A program made the position numbers and the translations under genes. Of a stretch of 64,000 nucleotides of DNA, positions 11,138 through 30,500 are shown in pieces. Source of the DNA: a virus. The DNA lies in the IMG/VR virus record IMGVR_UViG_3300037805_000644, positions 1 through 64,000 of that record; one strand, given 5' to 3'. The notes beneath the pieces were generated by a model that worked only from the letters and a program-made list of their open reading frames with translations, was not told where the DNA came from and did no database searches. The stretch's first letter is position 1. Every line of letters starts with the position of its first letter.

Positions 11138-11850
11138 GCAAGAAAAAGCGGCCCGGTCAGAAAAACCGGGCTTTCATCGATATTGAGACAACGGGCCTAC
11201 ATCCCGATATCAATGAGATCATCTCTTTCGCGGGGCAGAAATACTCCCCTGAGGGGGTTCTGCTCGATGAGATCGAGTTCAAGATCAAGTTCCAGCACAC
11301 CGAGGAGCCCCCACCCAACGCGGAGCACATCTGGCCGGGACCCGACCCCTTCTCCCCTGAGAAATGGAAAGAAGGGGTGGACTTTTGTCTGGGGTTCAAC
11401 CATTACAGCGAGGAAGAGTGGGCAGATGCCTTGGTGCTCCTGGATGCTCTCCACTGCATTGCAGACTTTCTCAGGGGTTCGGTCATCGTGGGCCACAACC
11501 CTCACTTTGACCGGGAGTTCATCGCCACCAAAGCCAAGCGGCTCGGGTTGAAGGTGCATTTCCCGTACCACAAGATCGACACCGTCACGCTCGGTTATGA
11601 GCACCTGGCCCCCTTGGGGCTCCCTTACCTGTCGCTCTCAAAGCGGGGGGGCGTGTGTGACTTCTTGGGGATCCCCGTGGAGAAAGCGCATGAGGCCCTG
11701 GACGATGTGCGACGCACCGCCAAGGTGTTCTTCATGCTCGACAAGGCGACCTGGTTCGACCGACTGCGATGGCGGTTCAACTGGTGGTGGCGCCGCAATC
11801 TCAAGATTTCTGAGGTAACTGGATCCATCCCCGATAGTGGGGTAGCTTGA
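11134..11850 (+). CDS. DnaQ-like 3'-5' exonuclease (DEDDh)
   Basis: 238 residues. Exo I is FIDIETTGLHPD (catalytic D16, E18), Exo II VGHNPHFDREF (~124-134) and Exo III HEALDDVRRT (~187-196). The His five residues before the last Asp places it in the DEDDh class with DnaQ and RNase T. The C-terminus is basic and tryptophan-rich (WRFNWWWRRNLK), possibly a nucleic-acid or membrane-contacting tail. It overlaps the Thg1-like gene by 4 nt. PolA here also has a proofreading domain, so this enzyme may serve in repair, host DNA degradation or RNA trimming. Confidence 0.9.
   Translation: MSKKKRPGQKNRAFIDIETTGLHPDINEIISFAGQKYSPEGVLLDEIEFKIKFQHTEEPPPNAEHIWPGPDPFSPEKWKEGVDFCLGFNHYSEEEWADALVLLDALHCIADFLRGSVIVGHNPHFDREFIATKAKRLGLKVHFPYHKIDTVTLGYEHLAPLGLPYLSLSKRGGVCDFLGIPVEKAHEALDDVRRTAKVFFMLDKATWFDRLRWRFNWWWRRNLKISEVTGSIPDSGVA
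11814..11840 (+). promoter_or_regulatory. GGTAAC-N16-AGTGG promoter-like site (distal)
   Basis: GGTAAC (11814-11819), 16 nt, AGTGG (11836-11840), one mismatch. It overlaps the 3' end of the exonuclease gene and is immediately followed by a second copy. Confidence 0.5.
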
Positions 11851-11867
11851 TCTGCCCCTAATAGTAG
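11841..11867 (+). promoter_or_regulatory. GGTAGC-N16-AGTAG promoter-like site (proximal)
   Basis: GGTAGC (11841-11846, one mismatch), 16 nt, AGTAG (11863-11867). It is 22 nt before the ATG at 11890, in tandem with the site at 11814. Confidence 0.55.
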
Positions 11868-11889
11868 CTCGGGGGAAAGGAGGTACCTG

Positions 11890-12072
11890 ATGCAACTATA
11901 CTCAGAGGTTCTGCAAGAACGGTTGGTTACCCTGAAAAGGAGCCTTCGACGGCACAAACCCGGCAGCAGGGGGGAAAAGACCACCCTTGCTCGCATCGAG
12001 AAACTTGAGGGTCATCTTGAGAAGCATGAGAGAGCCGTCGCTGACAACCCCTATATCCCTTACAAGGAATAA
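11890..12072 (+). CDS. small basic helical protein, unknown function
   Basis: 60 residues, MQLYSEVLQERLVTLKRSLR and a KLEGHLEKHERAV helix. High Lys/Arg/Glu content suggests a coiled coil or nucleic-acid contact. AAGGAGGT precedes the ATG and two tandem promoter-like sites lie upstream, which supports it as a real gene despite its size. Confidence 0.65.
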   Translation: MQLYSEVLQERLVTLKRSLRRHKPGSRGEKTTLARIEKLEGHLEKHERAVADNPYIPYKE

Positions 12073-15882: not shown

Positions 15883-16705
15883 CAATTTCTCCTGAGGCCG
15901 TGAGCTTGATCCTTACCCCGGCTTTGACCCTCCTACCCCCAGACCTGCGGGGATCAACCGGGACCGCCCAGGGATCCGCTGCGGGTTGTGGTTCAGGGAG
16001 GCTTCCGATCATGCCCCCTTGGGCTGTTGCATTCCCTCGGGGAGGCGGTGGGGCCTTGAGGGGCGCCTTGGGGTGTTGAGGGGCTGGGGGGCCTTTGATG
16101 ACAGGCTCAGCCTCCTCGGGCTCTTCGGGATCAGGCTCGCTCGACTCAAGTCGGTCGTAAATGGCCTGCACATACTCCTCGATGTGGGATTTCTGCTGCC
16201 GCTGGGCAAGGACCACTGCCCGCTCCCAAAGCAGAGGGTCCCGTTCGGGGCTCTCGCCTTTCTCGGGGGCCTTGCGCCCTTGAGCTTCTGCAAGGCGCTG
16301 CACCGCCGCGTCTACTGCCTTGGACTCATTGGACACGGGCTTGCCGTCCGTGATGTCAAAGGAGGGCGTCTCGACGGGGGTCCAGTCGTTCCGCTTGGAG
16401 CTGATCTCTAGCTTCACCGCCTGGTTGAGCAGGTTGGCGAAGTCCGCCTGCACGATGCGTGCGTACTTGGGCTGATTGGGGTCAGCCTGGCTGGGATTCA
16501 TCAGCCTGTCCGCCTGGTTGGACATGCGAGCGGCAAAGGGGTCACCGGCCTGGTGGTTTACGCAGACGGGGTTCCGGCACGCACGGCAAAACAGCTCTTT
16601 GAACTGATCCGTACTGGGGGGGTTGCCCACCTTCTGAGTTTTCTGTTTCCAGTCTGCCAAGCAGTCCGGGAGGAGGTCTTGCGTCTTGTAGTCTGGGATA
16701 CTCAT
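15875..16705 (-). CDS. unknown protein with CxxC motif and acidic linker
   Basis: 276 residues. CRACRNPVCVNHQAGDPFAA near residue 40 is a cysteine cluster that may bind metal. A helical region follows (AAVQRLAEAQGRKAPEKGES), then an acidic SSEPDPEEPEEAEPV linker and a proline-rich tail. Twenty-six bases of the linker are identical to a stretch in the methyltransferase gene at 28.7 kb. ATG 16705 overlaps the upstream stop (ATGA), fixing the start. Function unknown. Confidence 0.65.
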   Translation of the reverse strand: MSIPDYKTQDLLPDCLADWKQKTQKVGNPPSTDQFKELFCRACRNPVCVNHQAGDPFAARMSNQADRLMNPSQADPNQPKYARIVQADFANLLNQAVKLEISSKRNDWTPVETPSFDITDGKPVSNESKAVDAAVQRLAEAQGRKAPEKGESPERDPLLWERAVVLAQRQQKSHIEEYVQAIYDRLESSEPDPEEPEEAEPVIKGPPAPQHPKAPLKAPPPPRGNATAQGGMIGSLPEPQPAADPWAVPVDPRRSGGRRVKAGVRIKLTASGEIDD

Positions 16706-22823: not shown

Positions 22824-22871
22824 GGTAACTCCAGCATTTTTTTTTGGGGGGGGGTTGATCCCCTCCATGCC

Positions 22872-23753
22872 TTAACTACTATGTGGTGGGCTACCGTTAC
22901 CTCTTTTATCTGGCCCCATGAACATTTCGCAGAATTCAGGGATAGCGATCCTCATCCTTTTTCGGGCAATCTCCAGGTATTTCGGGGAGATATCCACACC
23001 TAAGAAGTCTCTGAGGTTATTGCCGGCAGCAACGCCTGTGGTGCCACTGCCACAGAAAGGGTCAAGAACCAGATCACCCTCTTTGGTGAACAGCTTAACG
23101 AAAAAATCAGGAAGGGCCACTGGGAATGCGGCTGGGTGTCCTAGATTTCGGGTCTCCGTCGGGAGGTGCAGGACATTGCTCGGGAAAACCATTTTCCGGT
23201 CTTTCCAAACCCCCGTGTTTTTCGTGTACCCTGAACCCGTCCCAGACATCACCTGACCAACGCTCTCCCCTTGTGTCCAATCTCCCACCGGAACACGGAC
23301 ATTATCCTGGTACATCAAGAACTTGCGGTTCTTGTTAAACTGTAGGATCCGTTCCCAAGAATCCCTGAAACGATTAGGCCATTTACCCGGTGTGGTGTTC
23401 TTTTTGTGCCAGATGAATTCCTCAGTCCAAATCCACCCCTGAGAGCGCATCGCCTGGATCAAATCCAGAACGTAGGTATGCCGCTCCCCGCGATGCACAT
23501 GCTCCTTGATGTTCACAAGCAGGGTGCCCGAGTCCTCCAACACCCTGTAAAGTTCCAAGGAGACATCCCTCCACCACTCCACGTAATCGTTTGCAGGGAT
23601 GCCCCCGTAAGTGGCTTTCCGCTGAGTTGCATAGGGAGGTGAGGTGAAGATAAGCTGGACACTCCCACTCTCAAGCCCTCCCAACGCCAGGGGCACAGCC
23701 CCTTCAATCAAATCCCACTCAACCACGCTTGTCTCCTTCGGAGTTAGCCGCAT
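22872..23753 (-). CDS. DNA methyltransferase (N4/N6-type, beta class)
   Basis: 293 residues, SAM-dependent. Catalytic motif IV is TSPPY (37-41) near the N-terminus and the SAM-binding motif I is DPFCGSGTTGVAAG (~235-248) near the C-terminus, the order of beta-class enzymes. TSPPY is most often seen in N4-cytosine methyltransferases, though N6-adenine cannot be excluded. A target-recognition region lies between (WIWTEEFIWHKKNTTPGK). Likely protects phage DNA from restriction. It overlaps the broken methyltransferase upstream by 35 nt. No cognate endonuclease is adjacent. Confidence 0.9.
   Translation of the reverse strand: MRLTPKETSVVEWDLIEGAVPLALGGLESGSVQLIFTSPPYATQRKATYGGIPANDYVEWWRDVSLELYRVLEDSGTLLVNIKEHVHRGERHTYVLDLIQAMRSQGWIWTEEFIWHKKNTTPGKWPNRFRDSWERILQFNKNRKFLMYQDNVRVPVGDWTQGESVGQVMSGTGSGYTKNTGVWKDRKMVFPSNVLHLPTETRNLGHPAAFPVALPDFFVKLFTKEGDLVLDPFCGSGTTGVAAGNNLRDFLGVDISPKYLEIARKRMRIAIPEFCEMFMGPDKRGNGSPPHSS
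22876..22901 (-). promoter_or_regulatory. GGTAAC-N15-AGTAG promoter-like site
   Basis: GGTAAC (22901-22896), 15 nt, AGTAG (22880-22876), inside the 3' end of the methyltransferase gene, 53 nt before the ATG at 22823. It would let the ParB-like gene be transcribed separately. Confidence 0.6.
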
Positions 23754-24331
23754 GTACAGGTTTCCGGGCCGTCAGAAAGGGCTCCCAGGAGGGGCGCACG
23801 GCTGTGCCGTAACCATCCCAGAACTGGGCCTCCTTTGTGGTGGGTTCAGTGATGTACTGCACCCCTGCCGAACCGGCATCCCCACTGCCAACCAGGGTGT
23901 CGAACCCCCGACCACCCTTGCGCTTAGAGTTCGGGCGACTGGAGGGGTTGACCCCCACCGGCGTCCCCTCGAAACCCAACCGCTTGTCGATGGATTTGCT
24001 GATGTTCAGGTTTTTAGGGAAGCCTGTGCCGTACCCCCAGGCTTCGAGGCTGAGGTCCGTGAACCCCGCCTCCTCAAGGACCTGTGCCAGCCGGTGATAG
24101 GTGCGGGCGGCCGAGAACACCTTGACCACCCCGCCAGGCTTGAGCTTCTGGTAAATGAGGGTCCAGAGATCTGCATCGAAAGCGATCCCCGAGCGGTCCC
24201 ATTTCTTGCCCATGAATCCAATCTCAGGTATTATTACTCGTAGGGGGGATCGGTGATGACAGCGACGATTGAGTCGTCGTCCAGCTCCAGCAGGCGCACT
24301 TGGCAAGCACCCAACCACAGCAGGAATGTCA
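23719..24331 (-). pseudogene. DNA methyltransferase N-terminal part, disrupted at DPPY
   Basis: Upstream frame: LLWLGACQVRLLELDDDSIV then VITDPPYE and two stop codons. Downstream frame: IGFMGKKWDRSGIAFD, LKPGGVVKVFSAARTYHRLA, WGYGTGFPKNLNISKSI and WEPFLTARKPV. Removing 14 nt (24223-24236) would fuse them as DPPYE-IGFMGKKWD, a standard methyltransferase motif IV region. The part after ATG 24213 could be expressed alone but would lack the catalytic motif. The protein stops after the ARKP motif and lacks the later motifs, which occur in separate genes at 28.4-30.5 kb. A homing endonuclease gene lies against the broken end on the opposite strand. Confidence 0.8.
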
Positions 24332-24346
24332 GATCCCCCCTACGAG
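24237..24346. repeat. 15-bp inverted repeat of the DPPYE coding sequence
   Basis: CTCGTAGGGGGGATC at 24237-24251 and its exact complement at 24332-24346. The minus-strand copy encodes the methyltransferase motif DPPYE. The plus-strand copy lies just before the homing endonuclease gene. An exact 15-bp match to a functional motif suggests rearrangement around the endonuclease target. Confidence 0.8.
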
Positions 24347-24374
24347 CCTTATTTTCCAGCATCGAGGGTTCCTC

Positions 24375-25175
24375 ATGAAAGTTCAACGCACATGCCCAAT
24401 ATGCGGCAAGGTCTACAAAGCAGACAGTACCCGGCTCAGGCATGGGAGGCAGACCACCTGCTCTCGTGCTTGCTCTTACTCGCTCCGGGGGGGGAAACGA
24501 GCTACCTCCACTGAGATCACCTGCACCACCTGCGGGAGTTCTTTCACACGCCCCCCCAGCCAGATGAAATCACGCCATGGGGGATCTTTCTGTTCAACTG
24601 AGTGCCATTACAAAGGTCGGGGTCTCGGCCACGTCCAGAGAATCGTGGAGGACGGATATGACCTCACGCCCGAGGGGCGTGCCTCTCTTTCCGTTCGCCG
24701 CAGGGAGGCCAACTTCAAACGCAAAGCCGAAGGCAGATACGGCCACACCGAGGAAACCCGAAAGAAACTCTCAGCCTCAACCGCTAAGGCCATTGCTGAG
24801 GGCCGGATCCCACGAATCTCCAAGTTTGAGCGGGAGGTGGGGGTGGTGCTGAGGAGCTTGGGGGTCAAAGCCCAACCCCAGCACGGCATCCGGGATGCTC
24901 AAGGGAGATTCCGTGCGGTGCTGGATTTCTGGCTGCCCGAGCTGGGGGTAGGTGTGGAAGCCAACGGCACTTTCTGGCACGCCGACCCTCGGGTTTTCCC
25001 CCAAGGCCCGGAGCACGCCAGCCAAAAGCGAACCGCAGAGAGGTATGCCCGGAAAATGGCTCTGTTAAATCTGCGGGGGGTTCCCGTGATCGAGGTGTGG
25101 GAGAAAGATTTCAGGGAGGACCCTAAGGGGGCCGTTCAGGATGCCCTTCGAGGTCTCAACGCCCCTGGTGATTGA
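24375..25175 (+). CDS. EDxHD/Vsr-like homing endonuclease with zinc fingers
   Basis: 266 residues. Two N-terminal zinc-finger-like modules (CPICGKVY...CSRAC and CTTCGSSF...CSTECH), a NUMOD-like helix (HTEETRKKLSASTAKAI), then a Vsr/EDxHD nuclease core: EREVGVVLRSLG, AVLDFWLPELGVGVEANGTF, WHADP and VIEVWEKDF. The architecture fits free-standing phage homing endonucleases of the EDxHD group. It is on the strand opposite the methyltransferase it abuts and sits between that gene and a likely methyltransferase promoter at 25298, so it appears to be an insertion. ATG 24375 has GAGG seven nt upstream. Confidence 0.85.
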   Translation: MKVQRTCPICGKVYKADSTRLRHGRQTTCSRACSYSLRGGKRATSTEITCTTCGSSFTRPPSQMKSRHGGSFCSTECHYKGRGLGHVQRIVEDGYDLTPEGRASLSVRRREANFKRKAEGRYGHTEETRKKLSASTAKAIAEGRIPRISKFEREVGVVLRSLGVKAQPQHGIRDAQGRFRAVLDFWLPELGVGVEANGTFWHADPRVFPQGPEHASQKRTAERYARKMALLNLRGVPVIEVWEKDFREDPKGAVQDALRGLNAPGD

Positions 25176-25271
25176 GGGGGCCGGGATCCGGCTTTATCGA
25201 TGGCGTCCCGTGCTCGGGCTTTCTGATCTCGTACTCGGCTCATCCCCATACCCTTCCGGTGGTCTAGGGGA

Positions 25272-25298
25272 CTACTCAAAACAGGGGTGAGTGTTACC
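25272..25298 (-). promoter_or_regulatory. GGTAAC-N16-AGTAG promoter-like site
   Basis: GGTAAC (25298-25293), 16 nt, AGTAG (25276-25272), pointing left. The nearest leftward gene is the disrupted methyltransferase, now separated by the plus-strand endonuclease gene. A short open stretch MSRVRDQKARARDAIDKAG follows it, possibly the original methyltransferase N-terminus. Confidence 0.6.
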
Positions 25299-25572
25299 AG
25301 CCCTGGCGGTTGACCGAGCAGGCGTCGATCTCCCCACAGGAGCTGATCTTGGCGAGGCAGGTGGGGTTGAGGGCGTGCCCTCGGGACTGGGTGTCCTCAC
25401 AGAACTGCTGGCAGCTCATCCCGTTGCCCAGGGGCTCACCCTCGGGGCAGCCCAGGTCTGCCATGCGGACACAGGCCGGCTTGCACTGGTCAGTGTCGTT
25501 GGGCTCCACGGGTTTGGGCTGGGGAGCCCCACAGCCCATAAGGAGCAGGACCATCAGGATGATTCGGCTCAT
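25294..25572 (-). CDS. cysteine-rich predicted lipoprotein
   Basis: 92 residues. MSRIILMVLLLMGCGAPQPK has a basic start, hydrophobic core and LMGC lipobox, so lipidation is expected. The mature part has eight Cys in a pattern (QCKPACVRMADLGCPEGEPL; CQQFCEDT; CLAKISSCGEIDACS) resembling small Cys-rich lipoproteins of Deltaproteobacteria/Myxococcota. It may be a surface-exclusion or lysis factor. The ATG overlaps the preceding virion gene stop by 4 nt. Confidence 0.75.
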   Translation of the reverse strand: MSRIILMVLLLMGCGAPQPKPVEPNDTDQCKPACVRMADLGCPEGEPLGNGMSCQQFCEDTQSRGHALNPTCLAKISSCGEIDACSVNRQGW

Positions 25573-26816
25573 GGTGTGAAGCTCGCGAAGTTCAAGATGG
25601 TCATGTTGAGCATGGAGGCACTATGCAAGGCCCCTGCCTCATTGTCCGTCAGGATGGGGAAAGTGTCCCCATCCCCCATCCTGAGCCACGCCTGCATGTC
25701 TGCCACGAAAGGCTTGGCGTTCAGATCGTCAGGAGAGCCGCCGTTGTAAAGGCTGGTGACATTGGCACCACTCAGCTCCACATCGAAGTAAGCCCACTCG
25801 TTGATGTAACCCAGCAACCAGTTTGCCTCCCCCTGCCCTCCCTGTGCCCTTCCGATGCGGAAAGACCCGGACCCTCCAGCACTCCCTGTCATGTTGTTTT
25901 CATTCGTGGTGTTTACCTGGAGTGCCCCATCCACATAGATCTTGATCCCGGCCGGGGTCTCCGTGCCGTCATTGGTGACCACGAGGTGGTACCAAGTGTT
26001 CCCGAGAAGGGTGCCGGCCTCAACCTCCAAGCTGGTGTTTTTGCTGTCCTTGAAACGAACTACAAGCTCACCCGAGACCTTGACCTCGAAAGCGATGTTA
26101 TCGTTTTTGGATCCGAAAGCCCAGATGTCGGAATCCACGAGGGTAAGGAGATGCACCCACTGGGAGATCGACCACGCCTGACTGGAGTCCCGCTCAATAG
26201 CCGCAGTGGTCGTGACATCAAGGTACTGCTTGAAACTAGGACCGTCAAAGCGTACTGAGTTGGTGTCCGAAAACCCCGGCCCAGATGCCAGCACCGTGAG
26301 GTTCAGATTGGCGGTGGTGGTCCCGTTCCCGTTGACTGCGGTGATCGGAATCACCACGGCACCCACAACTGTGGTCGATCCAAAAATGGTGCCCAGCTCA
26401 TTGTTGACGGCCAGGCCAAGGGGCAGCCCTGAGGCGTCAAAGTAAGTGGGGCCCTCTGTGGCGACAATCTGGTAATTGAAAGGCTGGCTTGCCACCACAC
26501 TCTCAGTGAGAGAGGAGGTGATCGTGGGCTTGTTCCCCCCGGGGCCCCCGCCAGCCAGGGCGTTGAACTCGGCGTTGAGGTAATTGACCACCTCGCCCAC
26601 GTTCGCACCCGCCGCCGTTCCGTCCTGTTTCAGTACCTCCGTGAAAGGTGCGGAAGCAATCTCCCGCCACCCCACGGGTCCATGCAGGTCGTAGATGTCG
26701 ATGAGGCCATCATCATCCTCAACTGCCTGGAGCGAGTTGGTGAATTTGGTGGCGACAGTGGAGGGGTCAAACACCACTGACCCTGCCTCATTGTCCCTGT
26801 AGATTTTGACTGCCAC
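25569..26816 (-). CDS. LamG/concanavalin-like virion protein
   Basis: 415 residues from GTG 26816. Residues ~110-190 resemble a putative Ig (He_PIG) domain (PFNYQIVATEGPTYFDASGL). Residues ~200-395 match a LamG jelly-roll: WSISQWVHLLTLVDSDIWAF, WYHLVVTNDGTETPAGIKIY, then GSFRIGRAQ and GYINEWAYFDVELSG. Such lectin folds bind glycans, so the protein is probably a head fibre, tail fibre or receptor-binding accessory. Neighbouring genes are also virion-like. No catalytic motif. Confidence 0.8.
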   Translation of the reverse strand: MAVKIYRDNEAGSVVFDPSTVATKFTNSLQAVEDDDGLIDIYDLHGPVGWREIASAPFTEVLKQDGTAAGANVGEVVNYLNAEFNALAGGGPGGNKPTITSSLTESVVASQPFNYQIVATEGPTYFDASGLPLGLAVNNELGTIFGSTTVVGAVVIPITAVNGNGTTTANLNLTVLASGPGFSDTNSVRFDGPSFKQYLDVTTTAAIERDSSQAWSISQWVHLLTLVDSDIWAFGSKNDNIAFEVKVSGELVVRFKDSKNTSLEVEAGTLLGNTWYHLVVTNDGTETPAGIKIYVDGALQVNTTNENNMTGSAGGSGSFRIGRAQGGQGEANWLLGYINEWAYFDVELSGANVTSLYNGGSPDDLNAKPFVADMQAWLRMGDGDTFPILTDNEAGALHSASMLNMTILNFASFTP

Positions 26817-26826
26817 GGTAAAACCC

Positions 26827-27570
26827 TTAGAAGTGCTTGATAAAGAAACCGTTTACCGTCACCGAGGCGGCGGCACTGCACAAGACCTCGATGGTGGCGC
26901 CTGCCGCCAACACCTGTTCTGAGCCGATGTAGAATTGCAGGGTTTCCACTCGGGGGTAAGCAACCCCAGCACCCTCATCGAGAGAGGACAACCCCTTGGT
27001 CAACTGGAATCCCCCAAAGGCAGGGAAATTCAGGCGGACGGACAGCCGTGCGTTGTTCACTGTCGGTGTGACGGTGAAGTCTGCACGAAACAGCAGCACA
27101 TCACCCACCGTCAGGTCATCAAACAGGAGGGCGTTCCCCACGGTGTCCCACAGCTCCTCAACACCTGTCGGTGCCCAGGTTTTGGTGGTCTGGGGCCCAA
27201 GGCCATCGTTTGTCAGAGGCGTCCAGGTGTCTGCCACCAGCGCGAGGGGGGCTGCGATTGTCCCCAGATCGTTGTAATCCATGAAACCAAACCACTCCTG
27301 GGTGGCTCGGTGCATTTCGGACCCCACTTTGAAGAGTGCTGTGATCAACCCCCGATCAATGAACCCCCGTAGGACTCCGCTCTCGTAAGAGGCTGCCACG
27401 TCGCTGGAGTAAAACAACTCCAGCGTTCCCGTGGTCGGGACATAGACGCCACCAGCCCGGACGGAACCGCCAGCCCGGCCCCTCCCCAGGTCATTAACCA
27501 CGATGTCCTGGATCAGCAAGGGTGCCGCGCCCCCAACCAGGGTTACCTCAATGTATGGTCCAAAAGCCAT
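26827..27570 (-). CDS. probable virion structural protein
   Basis: 247 residues, almost all beta-strand and small residues, starting MAFGPYIEVTLVGGAAPLLI and ending VTVNGFFIKHF. Low cysteine, high Thr/Gly/Val, as in head decoration or tail components. RBS AGGAGG before ATG 27570. It directly precedes the LamG protein gene. Not assignable to a known family by eye. Confidence 0.65.
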   Translation of the reverse strand: MAFGPYIEVTLVGGAAPLLIQDIVVNDLGRGRAGGSVRAGGVYVPTTGTLELFYSSDVAASYESGVLRGFIDRGLITALFKVGSEMHRATQEWFGFMDYNDLGTIAAPLALVADTWTPLTNDGLGPQTTKTWAPTGVEELWDTVGNALLFDDLTVGDVLLFRADFTVTPTVNNARLSVRLNFPAFGGFQLTKGLSSLDEGAGVAYPRVETLQFYIGSEQVLAAGATIEVLCSAAASVTVNGFFIKHF

Positions 27571-27608
27571 GCTCAGCCCTCCTCATAGAACACCCGTGGA
27601 TAATCAAA

Positions 27609-28406
27609 TTATTCACGGTAAGGCTCAAAGCCCTCCTGGGCAACCCAGAAATCCTTGGAGGTGGGGGAAGCAATCAGCTCAGGAGACACGAGGCCATACC
27701 CGTCATCTCCCCAGGTCACCCCCCAGGAGTTCTCGATGAGGAACATGCCGTCCACATAGCCCACGATAACGACGGCATGGAGACCTACCCGGTCCTCTCG
27801 GGGGACCGGCTTGAGGGGGACCAGGGGACCTTTGCTCTTGTAGTGCTGGTACCAGTTGTCCCCCACATTGGTGCCGAACACCACAGGGTTTCCCGCCCGC
27901 AAGCAGTTGATCACCTCGGTGACCCGAGCGGCACCCGTGGACCGGATTTTGAAATAGCTCTCGATCTTGTGGAGGTAAGCAACCCGCAAAGACATGAAGC
28001 TCGGGGGGGTGTTCACCTTGTCGAGGTCGAACGGCCAGTTGGCCTCAGGGGGCACACCGAACCGACGCAGCACATTGAAGGCGTGGCTGACATACGTCCC
28101 CTCATCGTTGTGGGTCTCGGGGGGGCTCATCAGCTCTCGGGCCAGGTAATAAACGGCCAGGCGACTCAGATCCACATGGGCTGCCAGGCCGTGCTTCTGG
28201 ATGCGCTTGATCTCCAACGCCTTGATGCAGGCGTTGGCTACACAAGAGTTGGACCACCTCTGGTCATGGCGGGGCCCCGAGAAAGGGCGGAGGTCAGCAT
28301 CGCCGGAATCCTCATAAACCATTTGTGCCTTGAGGCTGTCCTCATACGACCAATGGCTAGGGTTGTCCGGTTCCTCCCGGAACCCCTTCAACGTGATCGG
28401 GTTCAT
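27609..28406 (-). CDS. papain-like (C1 family) cysteine peptidase
   Basis: 265 residues. Catalytic Cys55 in RWSNSCVANACIKALE (C1 consensus SCxA), His210 in GLHAVVIVGYVDG and Asn226 in IENSWGVTWGDDGYG. All three catalytic residues and the oxyanion region are present. There is no signal peptide or pro-region, so it should act in the cytoplasm or in the virion. Possible roles are virion protein maturation, host protein cleavage or exclusion of a bacterial defence. It lies between virion genes and methyltransferase pieces; the start overlaps the latter. Confidence 0.85.
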   Translation of the reverse strand: MNPITLKGFREEPDNPSHWSYEDSLKAQMVYEDSGDADLRPFSGPRHDQRWSNSCVANACIKALEIKRIQKHGLAAHVDLSRLAVYYLARELMSPPETHNDEGTYVSHAFNVLRRFGVPPEANWPFDLDKVNTPPSFMSLRVAYLHKIESYFKIRSTGAARVTEVINCLRAGNPVVFGTNVGDNWYQHYKSKGPLVPLKPVPREDRVGLHAVVIVGYVDGMFLIENSWGVTWGDDGYGLVSPELIASPTSKDFWVAQEGFEPYRE

Positions 28407-28656
28407 CGTGGATCCTCACCTGTTTGAAATAACCAGAAGCCCCGGGGAGTACCCTCTCCAGCTCGGGGATAGGGCAACCCTTGGCGCAGAACGACTTGGA
28501 GCATCCTGCCTTATGGACCAGGATCACATTGGCACCAAACCCACCAGAGGGCAAGCGGCTGCCATCAATGTTGACGGCACCTGTCCCGTGGGTTTCAACA
28601 TTGGCGACGATACTGGGCTCGCCGAGGGGCTTGCGGAGCATGTGGATCACGTACAT
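28357..28656 (-). CDS. methyltransferase central fragment
   Basis: 99 residues. RKPLGEPSIVANVETHGTGA then NIDGSRLPSGGFGANVILVH matches the RKP...HGTGA...NID...ANV segment that in phage N4/N6 methyltransferases follows the DPPY half. The Cys pattern KSFCAKGCPIPELE is also typical. No motif I or IV is present, so it cannot act alone. It would complete the broken enzyme at 23.7-24.3 kb and the C-terminal protein at 28.7-30.5 kb. The start overlaps the preceding stop (TGATG). Confidence 0.75.
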   Translation of the reverse strand: MYVIHMLRKPLGEPSIVANVETHGTGAVNIDGSRLPSGGFGANVILVHKAGCSKSFCAKGCPIPELERVLPGASGYFKQVRIHDEPDHVEGVPGGTGQP

Positions 28657-30500
28657 CAGTCTTCCCCAAACATGGCGTCAAACAGGTCGGGCTCTTCGGG
28701 ATCAGGCTCGCTTTCGTGCCTCTGATCAGTTGCCAGATCGAGCTTGCGGTACCCGGGGAGCCTTTGGTCCCAGTGCTCAATGCGGTTGGTGGAGATCTCC
28801 ACGTACTCCGGGGTCATGTCGATGCCCGTGAAATCGTGGCCTGTCCTCAAGCAGGCAACTCCTGTGCTGCCTGACCCCATGAAAGGGTCCACCACCCGGC
28901 CCCTTGGCACATCCCGCAGCAGGGTCTGCATGAGCCTCCAGGGTTTTACTGTGTTGTGACTCATCCCTACTGCCGTCTGAAACGTAGGGCAGTCCCGTAC
29001 CGTGAGGTTCCACACATCACCTTTGTAAGGGGTCGGGGTGATCCCTTGAACATAGGAGAGCCGGTATTCCACGCTTTCATGTTCCAGGATGGTGGGTCGG
29101 GTAGGTTTACGGCGCTCCTGCTCCCGGTCCAAGGCGTAAAAGCGCATTTGGTACGACGGCAGGGTCTCCTTGAACTTCCGACTCCCAATTTTGCCCGGCT
29201 GCGCCCCATAGCGGTGCAGGTTGCCCTTAGACCCCAGGGCCTCCCCCAGCAAACGCATCTGCGAGGCGAGATCTGGAGAGACGGTTTTAGCCTGGCGGTA
29301 TGTCCTCACCTTGCCGCCATCTCCTGCCATGTACCCCTCGAACACTGCTTGCCAAGTGGACCGCTGCCGTTGCCAGATCGTGGGGGGTAGCCGCTTGTTC
29401 GACGCCCCACACGGGGACCATTCCCGGAACTGCCCCCCGACCTCCGGGTCGAACCCGATGACCTGGACTGCCTTGGTTCCCTTTTTCGGGTACTCCCCCA
29501 GATTGAATCCCCGACCCTCAAAAAACCGACGAAGCCGGTTGATGTAGTCCGTCTCGTCCTGGTGGAGAGTGAACGAGGGGTACACGTTGGAACCGTGTCC
29601 CGCACGCTGGAGCACACCCTCTGCCAGCCACAACCCGAATACCCACCACCACTCATCCGGCCGGTCGTCCTTGATCCCTATGTCCACCAGCAGAGGGGTC
29701 ATCGTGTAATCCCCTCTGCGGATCGCTTGAGCCTCCACCCACCCCACGTTACCGCCGGTGATGTTCTTGCCTTTCCGGGTGGGCCTCCAGATGAGGAACG
29801 GGTGGTTGTCTGATGCCAGGGTGGTGTAGTTCGTCCCCTGCACTGCGATCTCGTACAGGTGGTCGCTAGTGTACGGGTGGTGGCTGATGTCCTCAATGGC
29901 GTGGAAACGCCCATCCGACCCCAACACCCGGTGGGCCAGGGTGACCTCAGAGATGGGCCGGTACCCTTGTTCTGTCATCACGAAAGCATCAGGGTGCAGG
30001 CAAGGGTGGTGATTCTTGACCCCCTGGGCCGTTCGGGAAGCCCCTGCCCGAGGGCTCTTGAGGCCGTCCGACCCTTCCTTACGCCCAGTGGCAGCGGCGC
30101 CAGTCTGCTCAGGTAGACCCTGGCACCCTGCCTCACGCTCAGCTCGGCTGACCTTGGCCATGTAGTGGAAAGGATCGGAGGCGTCATCGACCACCAGGAA
30201 CGTATCCCGGACCTGGAAGCCCCCGTCCTCCAGGTTGACCGCCCCCTTGTGCCCAATGGGGTTGTCCTCAGGGGCAACCACCATGAGGTGCGCCCCCGGC
30301 TTGAGGACCCTCAGCAGTTGGACGGTCATGGCCTTGTCAGGGGTCCCCACGACGAGGAGACCTGTTAGGGCTCCATCGGCGATGGAGCCCCAGTCCACCT
30401 TGGACATGTTGGGGATGAACACTGCCTCAAGATAGGGCTCGGGAGGGCTCAGGAACGTCCGTAGATAGTCGGACAAGCCCTTGGGGATAGGACGGCTCAT
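28656..30500 (-). CDS. DNA methyltransferase C-terminal part with intein
   Basis: 614 residues, of which 167-516 are an intein. The N-extein reads LLRVLKPGAHLMVVAPEDNP, then VSRAEREAGCQGLPEQTGAA, GRKEGSDGLKSPRAGA and VKNHHP. The C-extein starts TVKPWRLMQTLL followed by VVDPFMGSGSTGVACLRTGH, the SAM-binding motif I of beta-class enzymes. Splicing rejoins the conserved HHP-TVKP motif. DPPY (motif IV) is absent and exists only in another gene at 24.2 kb, so a split enzyme is plausible. The C-terminal tail (ESEPDPEEPDLFDAMFGED) is acidic and shares 26 identical bases with the gene at 15875. Confidence 0.88.
   Translation of the reverse strand: MSRPIPKGLSDYLRTFLSPPEPYLEAVFIPNMSKVDWGSIADGALTGLLVVGTPDKAMTVQLLRVLKPGAHLMVVAPEDNPIGHKGAVNLEDGGFQVRDTFLVVDDASDPFHYMAKVSRAEREAGCQGLPEQTGAAATGRKEGSDGLKSPRAGASRTAQGVKNHHPCLHPDAFVMTEQGYRPISEVTLAHRVLGSDGRFHAIEDISHHPYTSDHLYEIAVQGTNYTTLASDNHPFLIWRPTRKGKNITGGNVGWVEAQAIRRGDYTMTPLLVDIGIKDDRPDEWWWVFGLWLAEGVLQRAGHGSNVYPSFTLHQDETDYINRLRRFFEGRGFNLGEYPKKGTKAVQVIGFDPEVGGQFREWSPCGASNKRLPPTIWQRQRSTWQAVFEGYMAGDGGKVRTYRQAKTVSPDLASQMRLLGEALGSKGNLHRYGAQPGKIGSRKFKETLPSYQMRFYALDREQERRKPTRPTILEHESVEYRLSYVQGITPTPYKGDVWNLTVRDCPTFQTAVGMSHNTVKPWRLMQTLLRDVPRGRVVDPFMGSGSTGVACLRTGHDFTGIDMTPEYVEISTNRIEHWDQRLPGYRKLDLATDQRHESEPDPEEPDLFDAMFGED
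28953..30002 (-). mobile_element. LAGLIDADG intein in a methyltransferase
   Basis: 350 residues. It starts at Cys (CLHPDAFVMTEQGYRPI) and ends GMSHN before Thr, with His-Asn and Thr +1 as expected. The block B His lies in LASDNHPF. LAGLIDADG-like helices are FGLWLAEG (288-295) and FEGYMAGDGG (387-396). The insertion splits HHP/TVKP, a motif conserved in many phage methyltransferases. Confidence 0.93.

Follow-up and report, generated by a model that had tools for sequence, protein, structure and literature searches.

Phage enzymes whose genes were split by mobile elements are known mostly as two ordered halves. The genes for Aeh1 NrdA (mobE) and phage 25 gp43 were split in association with an endonuclease, and their products still form an active enzyme (PMC2988022), whereas the fractured genes of Dassa et al. 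2009 combine split inteins with a free-standing EDxHD/Vsr endonuclease. Inteins are likewise known in the orphan methylases of the actinophage Dorothy_75 family (Gosselin et al. 2023, PMC9957025). Here we describe a member, by sequence, of the same methylase family in the virus record IMGVR_UViG_3300037805_000644 (G000; 222,939 bases), of which bases 1-64000 constitute the analyzed window. The locus is probably an orphan beta-class (N6-adenine or N4-cytosine) phage methyltransferase encoded as separate complementary polypeptides that would act together, a reading to which its sequence leads us to assign a probability of roughly two in three.

Comparison with the described systems revealed several distinguishing features of this locus: (i) the Dorothy_75 family enzymes are encoded by one gene with insertions, whereas here several genes occur in reversed order, (ii) Aeh1 NrdA and phage 25 gp43 are different enzymes in two ordered pieces with demonstrated activity, whereas here three or four pieces are reversed, a decayed half is retained and the activity is predicted, and (iii) the genes of Dassa et al. 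2009, likewise in pieces and accompanied by a Vsr-like free-standing endonuclease, have split-intein halves at the breaks, whereas none are present here. The same methylase family is also split in the phage Seagreen (gp72/gp73/gp74), as well as in Techage and KilKor, with a Vsr-like endonuclease in the opposite orientation; unlike here, there is a single split between the recognition region and motif X, the endonuclease lies between the halves, and the normal order is kept. The Seagreen genes are annotated only; the literature searched yielded no paper that treats them as a split enzyme. Nor did it yield any account of three or four permuted pieces for this methylase family.

The methylase pieces of G000, designated C, B, A1 and A2, are all encoded on the minus strand, and their hits to a hidden Markov model (HMM) of the family are given by profile position:

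28656-30500, minus strand: C, a decayed catalytic half without DPPY, followed by motif X (HPTVKP) and motif I (DPFMGSG); interrupted by an intein
28953-30002, minus strand: LAGLIDADG-type intein in C, 350 amino acids (aa; C residues 167-516), inserted at NHHP^TVKP
28357-28656, minus strand: B, a free-standing target-recognition piece (RKPLGE..GTGAVNIDG..ANV); HMM from 177
24234-24362, minus strand: A1, a 42-codon open reading frame (ORF) ending in ..VITDPPYE-TAA (motif IV, catalytic); HMM 4-33
23719-24213, minus strand: A2, the rest of the catalytic half (MGKKWD..GTGFPK..WEPFLTARKP), ending where B starts; HMM 37-187
24375-25175, plus strand: free-standing homing endonuclease with a zinc-ribbon-like N-terminus and an MTES_1575/Vsr-like nuclease, divergent and upstream of A1

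An earlier, sequence-only reading of this DNA had proposed three pieces with complementary motifs, and these were confirmed at 24362-23719, 28656-28357 and 30500-28656 of the minus strand. The DPPY piece, which it had treated as one gene, does exist; it consists, however, of two ORFs, A1 and A2. The HPTVKP motif had been taken as contiguous, the intein inside it having been overlooked. In the 5' to 3' direction of the minus strand, the gene order is C, B, a peptidase, two ORFs, a small ORF, A1, A2 and another methylase, so the pieces stand in reversed order relative to the intact enzyme. The start of B overlaps the stop of C as ATGA, and A1 begins with an ATG of its own at 24362, preceded by a Shine-Dalgarno sequence.

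The same reading had suggested looking for a single-gene version in related phages. A scan with A returned many single-gene forms, and 78 of the nearest 80 viral relatives are open frames of at least 367 aa, the two shorter ones running off their contigs. In the intact phage homologs from 9NA, Solent, MPhalcon and BSP18 (389-410 aa), the order of elements is DPPY - GSGFPK - ARKPL - recognition region - NHHPTVKP - DPFMGSG. PHROG families 6025 and 3008, representing N- and C-terminal halves, hinted at more splits; the phages examined had full-length genes. The 484-kilobase (kb) phage LR756508.1 (L008, 575-5902) carries four tandem family copies, namely one with an intein, two intact ones, and a 332-aa copy without DPPY that is a degenerate paralog beside the intact ones.

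The family profile was built from 62 single-gene relatives and has 412 positions. On this profile, C matches positions 298-405 and, weakly, 54-95, the latter corresponding to its decayed copy of the catalytic half. B covers 177-209 in G000 and 177-256 in the related phage G001 described below. A free-standing B-like gene covers 177-303; it lies directly after dnaB in L106 (IMGVR_UViG_3300048031_000576, 11460-11966), a 57-kb contig with no other PF01555 match. A ends at RKP where B starts, and C picks up at FxY after the recognition region, so that, judging by the profile matches, the summed pieces cover the whole intact enzyme with no segment absent. The profile E-values (A1, 2.5e-7; A2, 2.7e-48; B, 4e-9; C, 3.5e-32, with only 13 sequences searched), together with conservation in a second genome, rule out chance for the pieces.

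The beta-class motif order, IV (DPPY) - recognition - X - I (DPFxGSG), is obtained only by summing the pieces. No one polypeptide holds all the motifs: A contains motif IV only, C contains motifs X and I only, and B contains neither. The PF01555 match of C is above the cut-off, and among solved structures, those nearest to the family belong to beta-class enzymes, e.g., M1.HpyAVI, CcrM and M.RsrI. The AlphaFold model of C was poor, with a mean predicted local distance difference test (pLDDT) of 62, a global template modeling (TM) score of about 0.24 and only local beta-class likeness, and it was not relied on. The acidic C-terminal part of C contains a 26-nucleotide (nt) exact repeat (window 28687-28712) encoding SEPDPEEP, the other copy of which (16116-16141) lies in another protein (..LESSEPDPEEPEEAEP..).

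Scanning with the C extein identified a relative, G001 (IMGVR_UViG_3300027985_000918; 402,383 bases), which also occurs as a duplicate with identical sequence under another number. Its layout is an intein-free C (265 aa), B following at once and overlapping it in a similar way, a peptidase, a small ORF, A1 (L009, 12458-12592, with a GTG start) and A2. The two phages thus share the same pieces, order and boundaries, at identities of 65% for C, 53% for B, 70% for A2 and 64% for A1, and A2 terminates alike in both (..WEPFxxxxKP). Because the split is common to G000 and G001, it must be old, and since the end of A2 is shared too, most of the selection acted after the split. The divergence between the phages at synonymous sites (dS) is about 1.3-1.6. 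The ratio of nonsynonymous to synonymous differences per site (pN/pS) is 0.30 for A2, 0.33 for C and 0.43 for B, as compared with 0.37 for the peptidase and 0.14 for DnaB, and the differences in A2 fall on the three codon positions as 37/23/77, a third-position excess. By these measures, A2, B and C are under protein-level selection.

The features of a gene in pieces observed here are intact single-gene relatives, full coverage of the enzyme and, for A2, B and C, retention by selection. The sequence-only reading had offered two explanations, an enzyme assembled in trans and a gene decaying after endonuclease invasion. The second fails as it was worded, since A is not interrupted and the split is shared with a relative. 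A broader version, in which the methylase is a pseudogene left by invasion of both the endonuclease and inteins, would account for the stop codons in A, the lost parts, the decayed DPPY region in C and the adjacent endonuclease. We consider it very unlikely: the same broken state is found in the relative despite the divergence, A2 and C having pN/pS values close to 0.3; all three modules are present and abutting; and the inteins are in frame in both phages. The pN/pS values, the codon-position differences and the shared split argue against decay, and a maintained gene in pieces is the best-supported reading of the sequences. For the enzyme assembled in trans, the conserved pieces, order and boundaries, the full tiling and the selection on A2, B and C support the proposal; assembly as such is predicted.

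In the proposed enzyme, the catalytic half (DPPY to ..ARKP) would come from A1 plus A2 and the target-recognition region (RKPL..) from B; C would contribute motif X and the half binding S-adenosylmethionine (HPTVKP, DPFMGSG) once its intein splices itself out. Synteny suggests that C-B and A derive from two ancestral paralogs that degenerated in complementary ways, the products of which probably now work only jointly, as in genes-in-pieces enzymes. In the huge phage LR745208.1, an intact 543-aa methylase occupies the position after dnaB, and its DnaB is related (64% over the longer segment); as C-B stands where this intact methylase does, C-B and A may stem from different paralogs. Expression, splicing, assembly, activity, the cause of the split and the joining of A1 with A2 are steps that we infer from the sequences.

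The same synteny is compatible with two unrelated functions, C and B forming a catalytically dead, DNA-binding methylase relative and A being a separate remnant, the two never meeting. The DPPY-less paralog beside intact copies in LR756508 and the B-like gene without other parts in L106 also agree with this alternative. It is unlikely given how exactly, in both phages, the parts lost and the parts retained complement each other, with A and B meeting at RKP and C resuming at FxY.

Several observations weigh against the complementary-polypeptide enzyme: (i) C retains its own decayed catalytic half, and A would have to dock beside that half or replace it, (ii) the apparent complementarity of the pieces rests on motifs, not structures, (iii) for A1, pN/pS is 0.47 and the codon-position differences are 11/7/15, too few changes to show selection, (iv) G001, represented by two identical IMG records, is the sole relative with the split, and (v) G000 is represented by a linear fragment of 223 kb, and an intact copy may exist elsewhere in this phage. 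No intact member of the methylase family was found in the G000 or G001 records. Scanning of viral contigs with C, B, DnaB, the endonuclease and two DPPYE-stop-GFM patterns returned only G001 and its duplicate as further split relatives, and a scan of the genome contig collection gave none. If the complementary-polypeptide enzyme is real, the locus provides a natural test of how far fragmentation of an enzyme can go while the gene is kept, and of how paralogs turn into mutually dependent subunits.

The inteins of the two phages would be independent passengers of this system. The intein in C has a Cys1 residue, LAGLIDADG-like blocks (WWVFGLWLAEG, FEGYMAGDGG) and a C-terminal HN followed by Thr (NHHP^C..HN^TVKP). 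Its matches to the intein profiles are weak, both falling short of the cut-off (PF14890, E 0.0014; TIGR01445, E 0.099); it matches a mycobacteriophage methylase intein over 98% of its length (E 6e-7). In the G001 ortholog of C, the insertion site is empty. Conversely, A2 of G001 holds an in-frame intein at WGYG^C..GN^SGFPK, for which A2 of G000 is the empty allele; this site is the one used in Dorothy gp75 (W-YG^C..GN^SGFPK; PMC9957025), whereas the G000 intein is inserted elsewhere. In both phages the inteins are whole and internal. No split-intein halves (Int-N/Int-C) were found at the breaks, where A2 extends only about a dozen residues past RKP and B begins 7 residues before it. An intein-like insertion is also present in the DnaB helicase of the 485-kb phage LR745208.1 (L103, 13816-16668).

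The break between A1 and A2 comprises the following elements:

24223-24236, minus strand: 14-nt gap TAATAATACCTGAG between DPPYE and IGFM(GKKWD), beginning with stop codons
24332-24346, minus strand: 5' arm of a hairpin, CTCGTAGGGGGGATC, inside A1 codons near the A1 start
24237-24251, minus strand: 3' arm of the hairpin, GATCCCCCCTACGAG, formed by the DPPYE codons; perfect 15-base-pair (bp) pairing with the 5' arm

The 14 nt after DPPYE, already noticed in the sequence-only reading, were upheld by family comparison (24236-24223); their counterpart in G001 is 9 nt long (TGACTTGAG). The junction reads GAT CCC CCC TAC GAG / TAATAATACCT / GAG ATT GGA TTC ATG in G000 and GAT CCT CCC TAC GAG / TGACTT / GAG ATT GGA TTC ATG in G001. 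Both genomes thus have an immediate stop and a GAG codon on either side, with gaps between the GAG codons of 11 nt (G000) and 6 nt (G001), a 5-nt difference. The 15-bp hairpin is kept in both genomes and ends at the GAG of DPPYE, with fold z-scores of -6.2 and -8.0. In 79 other family members, the arms are at most 7 nt and the mean z-score is -0.4, though one member reaches -5.3. One base pair of the basal stem differs between the two genomes, G-C having changed to A-T in a compensatory manner, and broken pairs are fewer than the substitutions predict (0.005 and 0.002 under a simple null). No report of such a hairpin-stop-matched-codon element at DPPYE was found in the literature searched.

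Two ways of joining A1 and A2 were weighed. We give an even chance to separate chains, whereby translation would stop after DPPYE and restart, by translational coupling, at the ATG 20-odd nt downstream, yielding a four-piece enzyme. The stop-to-ATG distance is 18-23 nt in both genomes, the Shine-Dalgarno sequence of A2 is weak (-2.7 kcal/mol), which is compatible with coupling, and the two gaps differ in length without preserving the frame. However, reinitiation would drop E-I-G-F, residues that hardly vary across the family and whose codons are retained, and it leaves the hairpin and the matched GAG codons unexplained.

Those two features are better accommodated by a more tentative alternative, in which A1 and A2 form one protein: the ribosome would leave at GAG, skip the stop-containing gap and resume at the second GAG, so that DPPYE-IGFMGKKWD is restored and the enzyme has three parts. 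By re-forming behind the ribosome, the hairpin that ends at the take-off codon might help to move it. Equally tentatively, the insert might shield the site from the endonuclease, as was proposed for T4 gene 60. The matched codons and immediate stop persist despite the 5-nt length difference, the hairpin meets the take-off codon in both genomes with its compensatory change, an endonuclease adjoins A1 (a remnant in G001), and GAGATTGGATTC is identical at 12 of 12 positions. The topoisomerase gene 60 of T4 similarly has a stop after the take-off codon, a matched landing codon, a 5' hairpin and a gene split with a neighbouring endonuclease (PMC5009743); it differs in its gap (50 nt versus 11 and 6 nt) and its codons (GGA versus GAG), and bypass is proven in T4, whereas here it is a candidate.

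Against bypass, an in-frame ATG lies 9 nt past the landing GAG, so that reinitiation requires nothing special. Identity of 12/12 upstream of the start is equalled at 2 of 51 other orthologous starts, and the conservation of GAGATTGGATTC therefore only mildly favours translation of these codons. Moreover, the case rests on two genomes, a nascent-peptide signal was not identified, and in G001 pairing of the stem can continue through the gap and the landing codon. We regard as rather unlikely the reading in which A1-A2 would be a second instance in phages of a ribosome-bypass cassette linked to an endonuclease, namely a short stop-containing insert at the catalytic DPPYE site with matched GAG flanks and a large coding hairpin as its driver, set in a three-part, permuted, trans-split methylase. 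The conserved hairpin-stop-GAG element would make a rarely observed decoding event directly testable.

Other explanations of the junction were rejected. Readthrough of the A1 stop fails as a common explanation, the frame being kept in G001 and not in G000; recoding of the stops is contradicted by TGA and TAA serving as ordinary stops in C and its neighbours; and DNA inversion at the 15-bp repeats was dismissed because the canonical N-terminus is encoded in the present orientation alone. No transfer RNA gene was found in the window and no Rfam intron within 22.8-31 kb. When the genes of G000 and G001 were compared and the candidates inspected, no further stop-gap pair in these phages was convincing; the comparison gave slice-boundary artefacts and overlapping-frame matches.

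The sequence-only reading had the homing endonuclease breaking the DPPY piece. The endonuclease instead lies just upstream of A1 and points away from it, and A1 has retained a start of its own. At the same place, G001 has short remnants of the 5' end of the endonuclease gene (34 nt at 82% and a further stretch), and the endonuclease was therefore present in the common ancestor. This remnant, together with the related endonucleases that separate the N-terminal from the motif-X/I part in the same methylase family of Seagreen, Techage and KilKor, makes a role in the ancestral split plausible: a long-standing neighbour, the endonuclease may have brought about the break. In Seagreen (L113, 1596-3927), Techage (L111) and KilKor (L112), the C-terminal piece, of 84 aa, carries a separate annotation as 'DNA methylase domain protein'. 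Another related endonuclease lies between the halves of an apparent tape-measure gene in Microcystis phage MaeS (L114, 827-5768).

Other genes of the G000 region include:

28406-27609, minus strand: papain-like (C1) peptidase, right after B in gene order
25572-25294, minus strand: small ORF between two further ORFs and the endonuclease
23753-22872, minus strand: complete methylase, unrelated to the split one, after A2

The two further ORFs, at window positions 25569-27570 in the interval between the peptidase and the small ORF, are missing there in G001, and one of them is LamG-like in look. Long T and G homopolymer runs occur at window positions 22839-22856, at the start of a minus-strand ORF (22868-21957) with an N-terminal PPPKK.

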